Positions 27,155 to 39,196 of a stretch of 64,000 bases of DNA are shown piece after piece. Numbering within the stretch: position 1 is the first letter of the stretch; each line of letters opens with the position of its first letter. The translations under genes and the position numbers were made by a program. The stretch covers positions 682,001-746,000 of the forward strand of contig NZ_CP077084.1 of the NCBI RefSeq assembly GCF_014268275.3, in the 5' to 3' direction. Under the pieces are notes generated by a model that made no database searches, had not been told where the DNA came from, and saw only the letters and a list, made by a program, of their open reading frames with translations. The stretch is from Pseudomonas tritici. Its GTDB lineage: Bacteria; Pseudomonadota; Gammaproteobacteria; Pseudomonadales; Pseudomonadaceae.

Positions 27155-29467
27155 TCATAAGGCGTGCTTCTGTTGCCCGGCCCAGGGTGCCAGCATAAAG
27201 CTGAATGCCAGGCCCAGGCTGACCGATAAGCCGAAATTACTCACTGCCGGTGTACTGGACACGGCCAGCAGGCCAAACGACAACCAGGTCGTCAGCGCCG
27301 CCAGCAGTGTGCCTAGCAGGCTGACCGCCGGCCCGCCGATCTGCTCGCGCATCAGGATCGCGTAGTCGACGCTGATCGCCGTGACCAGCAGCAAGCCGAA
27401 CAGGCTGAACAGCGTCAGCGGCTGGCCCAGCCAACCGAGGCTGGCCAGGCTGCACAGCGCCGCCAGCAGCGGCAGGGCGACAATGCGCAAGGCACCGCCA
27501 AAACCGAACGGCAGGATCAGCAAGAGCACGATCAGCACGCAGGACATCAATTTCAATTCGGCGGCGCTGATTTGCGTGTCGGCGAACACCCGGTTCAAGT
27601 CGCCCAGGCGGTCCACCAGTTGCACGCCGGGTAAATCCACTGCTTGCACCCGCAGCAGCGCCGGGTTGTTCAAACCTTGCAGGCTAACCATTGCCGCCAC
27701 GCCGCCGTCCACCGGGCCCAGCCACAGGGTGCGCCAAGGCTCGGCCAATGGGCCTGCCAGTGCGGCGTCGATATCCTGCGTAGGCAACGCTTGCAGTTGC
27801 GTCACCTCGGCTTGCAGGGCGCTGGCCGGTACGCCAAGGTCCAGCAATGGCTGCCAGTGCTGCGGCAGTTTATTCAATGCGTCGCGCACTTGTTGCTGCT
27901 CGGCGGGCAGGCTGACCAGTTGATTGAGCGCCAGATAGCCCTTGAGCTTATCCATGTTCACCAATTGATCCAGGCGCTGCGCCAGTGCGCGCTGGCGCTC
28001 CAGCAACTGCTGCTGATCCTGCGCCCGCACCAGGAAAAACTGGCTGGTGGGTTGGAACCCGGTAATCCGCGCGACGGCCTGTGCTTCTTCCAGCAATTGC
28101 GGCGGCGCGCCGATCCACTGGCGGATATCGTTTTTGCTGTTCAACTGCCACAAGCCACCGGCGCAAAACAGCACCAGCAGTGCCAGCAAGACCGGGCTCG
28201 GCACACGCTTGAGCAGCGAGGCGCGCAGCCGCCACAGGCCTTCGGCGATCCGCAGCGGCCATTGCGCCGGGCGCAGCTCGACGCCCTTGAGCAGTGCCGG
28301 CAACAAGCATACGGCGGACAAATAAGCGCCCACCAGGCCGGCGGCGGAGAACACCGCGATCTGTGTCAACGCCGGGAACGGCGTCCACGCCAGCGCCAGG
28401 TAACCGATGCAACTGGTCGCCAGGCTCAGGCTCAGGCCGGGCAAGGTCAGGCGCAACGCCGGCCAGCTGCGCCATGGGCGCATGCTCCAGCTTTTCGACA
28501 GGTAGTGCAGCGGGTAATCCACCGCCACGCCGATCAGGCTGGAGCCGAGCACCAAGGTCATCACATGCATGTGCCCGAACAGCGCCACACAGGCCACCGC
28601 GCCAAACAACATGCCCACCAGCACCGGTACAAAAGACAGCAACACGCGCCAGCGTCGGAACGCCAGCAACAGCAGTAACAGGATGCCGACGGTAGCGCCG
28701 CCGCCGACCCAGGTGATTTCCCGCGTGGCTTGCTGCTGACCATTGGCCGCATACAGCAAGCCACTGGCGGCGAGCAGTTGCGCGCCTTGCTGACTGGCCT
28801 GCTCGCGGCTGGCCTGGAGCAAGTCCGCCACTTGCAGCGGCAGGTTCATGTCAAAGGCGTTGCCGGTGGTGCTCGCACGCAGCAGAACCCAACGCTTGCC
28901 GTCGGCGTCGGCGACCAACGCGCCGCTGCCGATATCCAATTGCACGGCGCCTTGTTGCGGCTGGCTGTTTTGGATACGCCCGGTCAGCCCCAGCCAGTCA
29001 TCCTGGCTCGGCACCAGGCTGAACCCGGTAAAGGGGTCGAACAGGGCTTGCACGCGTTGCTGGATAAACGCGTCGGGCTGGTTGATCAGTTGCTCGCGGT
29101 CCTTGGCCGAGAGCATCGCCAGGCGACCGCGCAGCAATTGCTCGCGTAGCGCCGGCAAGTCGGCTTGCAGGTTCCACTGCACCTTTTCAAACAACCCGCT
29201 GGCCTGCCAGCGCTCGCCCAATTGTTGCGCCACGGCGACCGCTTGTTGGCGGTCGGCATGGCCCACCAGCACGAGTATTTGGCGGTTAAGCGGTTCCTGC
29301 ATGCGCTGTTCGGCTTGTTGCTCCAGGGCGTCCGGCGTGTTGCCCGGCACCAGCTCCATCAGGTTGGCGGACAACGGCGCGCCGTGGCGCCACTGCCAGC
29401 CGGCCAGCGCAAGCACCGCCACCAGCAGGATCAGGAAAAGGCGCGGCAGCAGGCGCTCACTGGGCAA
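27155..29467 (-). CDS. MMPL/RND-family exporter of the APE cluster
   Basis: A 770-residue membrane protein with an N-terminal helix (LFLILLVAVLALAGW), a large periplasmic loop, a block of about five helices near residues 250-400, a second loop, and another helix block near 630-765. This is the duplicated RND/MMPL layout. The start is probably TTG 29467, overlapping the LolA-like stop by eleven bases. In APE clusters this exporter is thought to move the finished lipid-like polyene across the inner membrane and hand it to the LolA-like protein encoded immediately upstream. Confidence 0.85.
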   Translation of the reverse strand: MPSERLLPRLFLILLVAVLALAGWQWRHGAPLSANLMELVPGNTPDALEQQAEQRMQEPLNRQILVLVGHADRQQAVAVAQQLGERWQASGLFEKVQWNLQADLPALREQLLRGRLAMLSAKDREQLINQPDAFIQQRVQALFDPFTGFSLVPSQDDWLGLTGRIQNSQPQQGAVQLDIGSGALVADADGKRWVLLRASTTGNAFDMNLPLQVADLLQASREQASQQGAQLLAASGLLYAANGQQQATREITWVGGGATVGILLLLLLAFRRWRVLLSFVPVLVGMLFGAVACVALFGHMHVMTLVLGSSLIGVAVDYPLHYLSKSWSMRPWRSWPALRLTLPGLSLSLATSCIGYLALAWTPFPALTQIAVFSAAGLVGAYLSAVCLLPALLKGVELRPAQWPLRIAEGLWRLRASLLKRVPSPVLLALLVLFCAGGLWQLNSKNDIRQWIGAPPQLLEEAQAVARITGFQPTSQFFLVRAQDQQQLLERQRALAQRLDQLVNMDKLKGYLALNQLVSLPAEQQQVRDALNKLPQHWQPLLDLGVPASALQAEVTQLQALPTQDIDAALAGPLAEPWRTLWLGPVDGGVAAMVSLQGLNNPALLRVQAVDLPGVQLVDRLGDLNRVFADTQISAAELKLMSCVLIVLLLILPFGFGGALRIVALPLLAALCSLASLGWLGQPLTLFSLFGLLLVTAISVDYAILMREQIGGPAVSLLGTLLAALTTWLSFGLLAVSSTPAVSNFGLSVSLGLAFSFMLAPWAGQQKHAL

Positions 29468-30149
29468 AGTCGTGTTGCTCCGCGTCGCTCAACGGCTGGT
29501 TGGCAGTGCTGTCCTGCATGCGCAGCACGGTGCTGTCGCCTTGGGTTTCCAGCAGTTCGATGGTGTGTACCAGCTCACTACCGTCGATATTGATCTGGGT
29601 GAATACCTGTTTGAGCAGCAGTGAACGCGGGATCAGCGTGAGCTTCCATTGCTTGGCTTCACCTTGCAGTTGCAGCTCAAAGTCACGCTGCAAGCCGCTG
29701 CTGTCGCCCTGGAGCACGGCGAGGAACAAGCGGTTCTGCTCGGCGCCGGCACTCTTGTTTGGCAGCAGTTGCCAGCCATTGGCGTCGCGGCGGGCAATGC
29801 CTTGGGCGCTGATGCGGTAGTCCTGTTGCAGCGGGGTTTTCAGCAGCCACAGCAGGCCGTGGTCCTTGGCGAGGACGAAGGTGCCTTTGCTGACCAGCGG
29901 TTGGGGCAGCGCACGCAGGTGTTTTTCCTGGGTGAAGCTGCCGTGGATCACTGAGGGTTTTGCAAGCTGGTCGCTGAGTTGTTGCAGGTCGAAGGCGTGT
30001 GCCGCCCCCGAAAAACCAAACAACACAAACACTGTAGGAGCGAGCTTGCTCGCGAAAAACCCGAGAGCGCCGCGTGGTATCAGGAAACCCGCGTTATCGT
30101 TGACGATCTTCGCGAGCAAGCTCGCTCCTACAAAGAACGGGGTCAGCAT
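29457..30149 (-). CDS. LolA-like carrier of the APE cluster, with a REPIN inside its signal region
   Basis: A 230-residue protein whose mature part (FDLQQLSDQLAKPSVIHGSFTQEKHL onward) is LolA/DUF-type: a periplasmic lipid carrier. ATG 30149 overlaps the thioesterase stop (ATGCTGA), so this is the native start. Codons from about 6 to 39 are encoded by a 100-bp REPIN inserted in frame. The hydrophobic run APTVFVLFGFSGAAHA and a cleavage site after AHA (residue 52) remain, so the leader is about 52 residues instead of about 20. Export is plausible but unproven. It acts between the MMPL exporter and the outer membrane. Confidence 0.82.
   Translation of the reverse strand: MLTPFFVGASLLAKIVNDNAGFLIPRGALGFFASKLAPTVFVLFGFSGAAHAFDLQQLSDQLAKPSVIHGSFTQEKHLRALPQPLVSKGTFVLAKDHGLLWLLKTPLQQDYRISAQGIARRDANGWQLLPNKSAGAEQNRLFLAVLQGDSSGLQRDFELQLQGEAKQWKLTLIPRSLLLKQVFTQINIDGSELVHTIELLETQGDSTVLRMQDSTANQPLSDAEQHDFAQ
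30033..30132. repeat. REPIN inserted in a coding sequence
   Basis: A 100-bp element with arms TGTAGGAGCGAGCTTGCTCG and the matching reverse complement ending CTCGCTCCTACA. Unlike the other repeats in the window, it lies inside a gene, the signal-peptide region of the LolA-like carrier. The host frame stays open across it, without a stop. Confidence 0.9.
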
Positions 30150-30571
30150 TTCAGGGCCCTTTCTACGGCGTCGGTGAATATTTTGGGCGAGGCCAATTGC
30201 ATCTCACGGCTGGTAACTTCCACCGCCACTTGCACAGTACTGGCACGGGTCAAACGCTCGCCGCTGGCGAGGTCGGTGATCAGGTAATTGACCTTCAAGC
30301 GGTTCTCCCACTCCACCAGGCTGGCGCGCACGTTAATGGTCTGGCCGAACACAGCACCGCGCACGTAACGCAGTTGCATGTCGATCACCGGCCAGGCGTA
30401 GCCGGACTCGAGCATCGCCGTGTAGTTATGGCCGATCTGGTCCAGCAGCGCGCAGCGCGCCACTTCCAGGTACTTCACGTAATGCCCGTGCCACACGACA
30501 TTCATGGTGTCGACGTCAAAAAACGGCACGAGGATTTCAGTGTCGCAATGCAGCACACCGGGGCTACGCAT
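30143..30571 (-). CDS. apeK: Aryl polyene acyl-ACP thioesterase (ApeK-type)
   Basis: A 142-residue hot-dog thioesterase of the 4HBT/YbgC type: VPFFDVDTMNVVWHGHYVKYLEVAR carries the catalytic Asp and the HGHY element. ATG 30571 is chosen because it begins a family-like N-terminus and overlaps the ammonia-lyase stop by eight bases; the long upstream frame is a shadow. It likely releases acyl chains or proofreads the carrier protein during polyene assembly. Confidence 0.87.
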   Translation of the reverse strand: MRSPGVLHCDTEILVPFFDVDTMNVVWHGHYVKYLEVARCALLDQIGHNYTAMLESGYAWPVIDMQLRYVRGAVFGQTINVRASLVEWENRLKVNYLITDLASGERLTRASTVQVAVEVTSREMQLASPKIFTDAVERALKC

Positions 30572-39106: not shown

Positions 39107-39196
39107 TGTGGGAGCGGGCTTGCTCGCGAAAGCGGTGGTTCAGTCAGCTAATGCAGCGACTGACACACCGCTTTCGCGAGCAAGCCCGCTCCCACA
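39107..39196. repeat. REPIN, left copy of a near-identical pair
   Basis: A 90-bp palindrome with the TGTGGGAGCGGGCTTGCTCG arm. It is the same length as the copy at 39799 and differs at only two positions, one in each arm, which pair with each other. Confidence 0.92.

Follow-up and report, generated by a model that had tools for sequence, protein, structure and literature searches.

REPs and REP dimers of the GTAG and CGTC families have been described as translated in frame within ORFs, where they usually code for 20-30 residues (excerpts of PMC3733652, BMC Genomics 2013). According to the same excerpts, many intragenic REPs lie near N-termini, and in two Xanthomonas species recB contains REPs at roughly matching positions. 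The N-terminal REPs of P. putida, C. koseri and S. maltophilia, with the genes listed per species, were mostly judged non-coding. The Rickettsia palindromic elements (RPEs) are mobile palindromes kept in frame within proteins; some of them stand at the NH2 terminus of a protein that is expressed (excerpts of PMC3733652). The REPINs of P. fluorescens consist of two inverted REPs of about 100 bp in total, are multicopy and were analysed in extragenic space (excerpts of PMC3116915, PLoS Genet 2011).

We have studied a REPIN in the leader of a LolA-like gene of Pseudomonas tritici, in a window of 64,000 nucleotides (the whole stretch of DNA analysed). Autotransporters have extended signal-peptide regions, in which a long extra n-region with a conserved motif stands before an ordinary core; the LolA leader has a similarly long extra n-region, whereas its sequence is whatever repeat landed there, with no conserved motif. 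As described for the intragenic REPs in the excerpts of PMC3733652, the repeat is translated in frame and near the N-terminus. In contrast to those, translation of the LolA repeat is unavoidable in half of the cases or more, and several repeat kinds occupy one site across a genus; LolA is absent from the genes named in the section of that paper on REPs inside ORFs (section 15, as excerpted). The RPEs, known here by their description in the same paper, are likewise palindromic mobile DNA surviving in frame, but they are other repeats in another host and occur in many genes, whereas LolA is one gene hit repeatedly. The P. fluorescens REPINs share the build, the size of about 100 bp and the multicopy state, while the LolA copy is intragenic; the excerpts of PMC3116915 contain neither "intragenic" nor "LolA". 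Intragenic REPs and RPEs are already known, and a REP/REPIN hotspot in the LolA leader was not found in full-text searches of openly available journal articles.

Results

A complete REPIN lies within the LolA-like gene of the pigment operon

The LolA-like gene of the APE/flexirubin-type pigment operon occupies 29457..30149 on the minus strand (230 codons, translated as MLTPFFVGASLLAK...FFASKLAPTVFVLFGFSGAAHA-FDLQQ). The profile search matched Pfam LolA (E 3e-09), with 37.3 and 31.5 bits for PF03548 and PF19574, above the curated cut-offs of 23.6 and 23; the match to NCBIfam LolA2_flexi (NF053544; 1.9e-18, 66.6 bits) fell under its cut-off of 125. Judged from the operon context (ammonia-lyase, thioesterase, MMPL), the gene behaves as the LolA2 of flexirubin/APE clusters. 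Profile matches identified the upstream gene as a thioesterase (4HBT; 30146..30571, minus strand) and the downstream ORF as an MMPL-family exporter (27155..29467, minus strand), whose start overlaps the LolA end. The initial annotation placed the LolA ATG over the thioesterase stop: the coding regions do overlap by 7 bases (30143..30149, minus strand), although the two codons (ATG 30149-30147, stop 30145-30143) share no base. An SD-like GAAAGGG can be read before the start codon (30157..30163, minus strand).

The REPIN (30033..30132, minus strand) codes for VGASLLAKIVNDNAGFLIPRGALGFFASKLAPT. It is preceded by the start codon and followed by the hydrophobic core, VFVLFGFSG, and the cleavage region, which together read VFVLFGFSGAAHA (29994..30032, minus strand). 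The first arm in the transcript (30109..30132, minus strand) and the second (30033..30056, minus strand) have 24 nt each, are 52 nt apart and are complementary at 24/24 positions (100%); the second arm codes for FASKLAPT, with the Lys closest to the core. Inverted repeat and ORF therefore agree with the earlier claim of a complete, in-frame 100-bp REPIN between the start at 30149 and the core, and the translation bears out that it adds about 34 residues with the frame open through both arms. The used reading frame is the only open one of the three, the other two containing stops. From the sequence alone, the REP lies wholly inside a translated ORF, as in the in-frame intragenic class of PMC3733652.

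The element has two inverted REP arms at fixed spacing and a GTAG/GTGG head followed by a palindrome (GTAGGAGCGAGCTTGCTCGCGA), and it is multicopy, the general REPIN pattern having 184 forward and 186 reverse matches in its own genome. Only five places there resemble the window's REPIN over ~100 nt, and the exact 22-mer of its REP arm has 7 copies genome-wide, two of them within this REPIN. The extragenic position is absent, since the element sits inside the LolA ORF; we have filed it as a REPIN by sequence at an atypical intragenic place. Its arms belong to the REP subtype GAG/CTC, with 7 exact genome copies vs. 43 for GGG/CCC, and form a perfect relic in the leader. In the window, REP-arm matches (up to 3 mismatches) numbered 8 vs. 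0.01 expected. Among the window's 8 REPINs, the LolA one alone lies within a credible gene as called by a simple ORF caller; another, at 39107-39196, shares bases with an ORF of 82 codons whose GC3 is low and which was not counted as a credible gene.

Long leaders recur across the genus

We have scanned named genomes for related loci and used 78 of the best 80 of 507, a set biased by the REPIN stretch having been part of the query; two loci were left out as duplicates within a single P. costantinii assembly (L077, L078 and L079 represent the same locus on three contigs, a probable assembly duplication). REP arms were present in the LolA leader of 68 of these 78 loci, which are close kin and a biased set, with 141 arms in the leader and 0 in the other 505,714 bases around the loci. 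For a less biased set, 298 Pseudomonas genomes were searched; 241 gave a match, and the leader was read in 210, including the window's own genome (the other 31 matching genomes, 5 of them with weak matches only, fall outside this reading). Leader lengths were bimodal: 111 leaders had up to 30 residues, 99 had at least 34, and none fell in between. Counting back from the end of the upstream stop, the LolA start lay at 4 nt in 195 of the 210 genomes (185 ATG, 10 GTG) and at 7 nt in 10, and an SD-like stretch preceded the overlapping start in 72/99 long and 92/111 short leaders.

The nearest kin of the window by mature part (94%) have a short leader, MKLITFLGALLLSLQAQA, and the window's insert can be aligned to the one in P. 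veronii. At least 34 long/short changes of either direction were required on a gene tree with 230 rows, at least 17 of them forced by well-supported branches; support for this tree is weak, 81 of its 221 inner branches being open, and it does not distinguish gain from loss. The lengthened leader is thus recurrent across the genus and no accident of one strain. REPIN-free relatives sharing the same long leader would have spoken against an insertion, and theirs measured 18-22 residues. The alignment with such relatives recovered the short form; the insertion ends and a target duplication could not be defined, because the leaders of the closest REPIN-free relatives have diverged too far. Separately, in leader L074 a REP arm is reduced to its first bases before the core, a scar of loss.

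Different repeats occupy the same site

The repeats in the leaders were classified with motifs written by hand from the leader sequences, counting each kind by its best motif. A repeat motif was matched by 94 of the 99 long leaders, compared with 12-22 of 99 after dinucleotide shuffling. Motif A (GTRGGAGC..GCTTGC, the window's kind) accounted for 66 long leaders, motif B (with a variant) for 16, C for 5, D (CCCTCTCCC...), E and F (GTAGCCCGGAT..ATCCGGG) for 2 each, and G for 1. Motifs A and B are loose and produce the 12-22 matches in shuffled leaders, C-G matching none in ten rounds; motif A also occurred in 3/111 short leaders, so a few A or B assignments may be due to chance. The stricter test for long inverted repeats was positive in 65/99 long, 0/111 short and 0/99 shuffled leaders. 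Exact copies of kind F numbered 193, 94 and 21 in the three genomes bearing F in the leader, with none in the two others tried. Kind A itself was present in at least two reading frames and as inverted pairs, an opposite-order pair (L327, L333) or single. Overall, the repeats at the site are of six or more kinds and differ in reading frame and in arrangement.

The start of the repeat varied from ~5 to 45 nt after the ATG, and these differing distances argue against a single target site. Tandem arrays generated leaders of 213 residues in P. proteolytica (L006, five REPIN units with a 123-bp period, open throughout) and 184 residues in P. brenneri (L033, four units, in which the end of the thioesterase gene, the SD-like stretch and the ATG recur as well). 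The leaders of P. lactis and P. libanensis have the REPIN loop inverted and are still open; an inverted loop between the arms with an open frame, seen in L059, L061, L171 and L174, suggests recombination between arms. Leader L343 combines two repeat kinds (GTAGGTTGGG... and CCCGGAT..ATCCGGG).

Seven genomes hold 100 or more exact CCGG arms, counting both strands, and a CCGG-type left arm was found in 3 of them, compared with 0 of 47 others (Fisher p 0.0014); two of the three positive genomes are close kin. Concerted exchange of arms with genomic REPs, considered as a candidate process, is suggestive only, and the window opposes it with an arm subtype of 7 exact copies. A regular 125-bp array of CCGG-type REPs with at least 16 consecutive arms was also seen (G208:C1:760651-762553).

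The repeats are in phase and translated

All 99 long leaders were in phase. Among the 111 short ones two were out of phase, L118 and L232; in L118, a short tandem duplication at the thioesterase/LolA junction covers this junction together with most of the signal peptide. Away from this gene, 7 of the 77 REPINs of the 100-bp kind listed in genome G188 had a length change, none by a multiple of three. The 100-bp kind found elsewhere was open in LolA's frame in 20/24 strand readings, the next frames being open in 0 and 11.

No in-frame ATG, GTG or TTG was present within 15 codons before the core in 51 of the 99 long leaders, and the repeat must therefore be translated in these. A start in this stretch that is accompanied by a basic residue before the core as well as by an SD-like stretch was found in 1/99. 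A downstream start, which would have contradicted the annotated translation of the REPIN as part of the leader, fails on these counts.

Comparison of the LolA leader with other sites

We have compared the site with others in the same genomes. The genuine LolA of 30 of these had no lengthened leader, with 1 REP arm in 108 kb; it was matched in one piece in 29/30, the G052 match being split into two frames around residue 114-119 (L375 and a second G052 place), either by a frameshift or by an assembly error. The neighbouring MMPL start, which also overlaps and is followed by a membrane helix, had no REP in the 78 loci, and neither had the other overlapping junctions of the pigment operon.

A protein search with the REPIN-coded stretch, covering one repeat kind, one frame and 127-402 residues, returned 43 matches in that size range: 35 with LolA domains, 7 without a domain and one PfkB kinase, in which the repeat precedes the likely true start. 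Six non-LolA matches (those besides P0033 and P0043) look spurious or over-extended at the start, and P0033 is spurious-looking too. REP loci elsewhere lay outside ORFs in 31 of 42 usable cases as judged by a crude ORF script, the set omitting L266, holding some duplicates and counting the LolA leader among its 11 overlaps. Two REP-rich genomes, G156 and G167 (more than 550 first-look candidates each), have short leaders of 22 and 20 residues.

Constraint, signal-peptide features and RNA structure

The 55 leaders of the window's class that were compared codon by codon gave 42 nearest-neighbour pairs. In repeat-coded codons, changes at positions 1/2/3 numbered 218/214/240 (pN/pS 0.69), compared with a pN/pS of 0.39 for the rest of the leader and 384/190/1259 changes (pN/pS 0.11) for the mature part. 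The frame is kept and the peptide hardly so, the repeat-coded codons being only weakly constrained. The same part read in two other frames gave pN/pS of 1.00 and 1.08; the raw value of 0.69 against these hints at a weak constraint on the peptide. An export-dead or export-impaired gene is unlikely, as strong purifying selection acts on the mature part in genomes that bear the repeat.

The Lys or Arg nearest to the core was past residue 6 and at most 12 residues from the core in 99/99 long leaders. In every case it sat in the inserted part, most commonly at a distance of 5 residues (42/99). AxA at -3/-1 was present in 95/99 long and 102/111 short leaders, with TxA in 4 long ones, and the core hydropathy of long leaders was as in short leaders.

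The window leader was predicted to fold with -83.3 kcal/mol (z -5.3). For the first 150 nt, long leaders had a median z of -4.19 and short ones of -0.25. Arm pairing had become poor in 34/99 long leaders (median z -1.62), and z was above -1 in 11/99, with the frame open.

Discussion

We favour, with moderate confidence, the interpretation of the REPIN as a translated, repeat-made n-region of the signal peptide, maintained by tolerance and lock-in rather than by selection for the peptide. The overlapping operon genes would leave no intergenic room for a landing repeat. One that lands just behind the thioesterase stop would become the LolA leader, and for this reason only open, in-phase repeats would survive there. 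As a Sec n-region would make few demands on sequence or length, any open repeat could be tolerated and serve, and the 100-bp REPIN kind, given its mostly open readings in LolA's frame, would arrive nearly ready for one phase. The original core and the AxA site would still direct export and cleavage, the leader then being discarded.

Lock-in could follow from the charge. The native charge would be displaced some 40 residues away, with FASK of the arm supplying charge near the core. Since the repeat's own Lys/Arg would replace the native charge beside the core, precise loss would need an in-frame deletion leaving a working n-region, a ratchet that would make loss rare and keep the repeat in place. 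The retained repeat may then stay, decay or be swapped for other REP subtypes.

Certain observations fit this interpretation less well. Tolerance alone leaves the choice of this signal peptide unexplained, because the MMPL start is empty in the 78 loci and hardly any other real proteins were matched. The short leaders of the REP-rich G156 and G167 count against tolerance, the lower pN/pS in the used frame counts against pure tolerance, and the perfect arms of the window, of a subtype nearly gone from the genome, are unpredicted by simple decay.

That this signal peptide is hit while others nearly always escape keeps alive a second, rather unlikely reading, in which a stable stem-loop at the lolA start is useful and selected, and can be supplied by any palindromic repeat. 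The stem-loop might throttle the translation of LolA/MMPL or shield the upstream message, and would be translated itself because of the gene overlap. The very stable window fold and the difference in median z between long and short leaders agree with this, as do the many gains or losses on the gene tree, the filled site in most of the named close kin (a biased set), the differing repeat families, which have little in common except the palindrome, and REP arms that by eye remain self-complementary via paired changes in many leaders. However, 111 of the 210 genomes manage without the hairpin and without structure there, a third of the long leaders keep the frame open with poorly pairing arms, and palindromic arms come with any REP. 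An exaptation can also be envisaged, in which the pigment carrier and its MMPL partner are made and exported with a delay or at a throttled rate owing to the stem-loop and the long n-region at the lolA head, these having been built repeatedly from whichever palindromic repeat was active in each Pseudomonas lineage. We regard it as speculative and unlikely; if true, mobile palindromes would be interchangeable regulatory parts within a coding sequence.

It is quite improbable that the pattern reflects an insertion hotspot, with REP movers preferring this junction, for example beside the thioesterase stop. REPs between co-directional genes are generally close behind the upstream stop (excerpts of PMC3733652), likewise here, and the rest of the 506 kb had no REP arm, but the repeats (kinds A-D, E, F, G) are seemingly unrelated in sequence with differing offsets from the ATG, and the operon's other overlapping junctions are empty. 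A start behind the repeat, leaving the REPIN as mere 5' structure, as the excerpts of PMC3733652 propose for most REPs at the 5' ends of ORFs in P. putida, C. koseri and S. maltophilia, is most improbable: GTG/TTG codons do exist within the window's core (VFVLFGF) and 48/99 long leaders have some in-frame start codon up to 15 codons before the core, but the others have none, hardly any combines it with a basic residue and an SD-like stretch, the frame is kept throughout, and the overlapping start is retained in long and short forms.

With the translated, tolerated n-region as the preferred interpretation, the locus bears on how REPINs are viewed. They are treated as extragenic by definition, and here one signal peptide has been entered independently by several kinds, always in frame. 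Start-site correction rules that trim REP-coded N-termini would remove real protein here. The leaders form a natural insertion series at one site with empty-site relatives, which shows how far a Sec n-region stretches and makes directly testable whether such a repeat is a tolerated passenger or a useful part.
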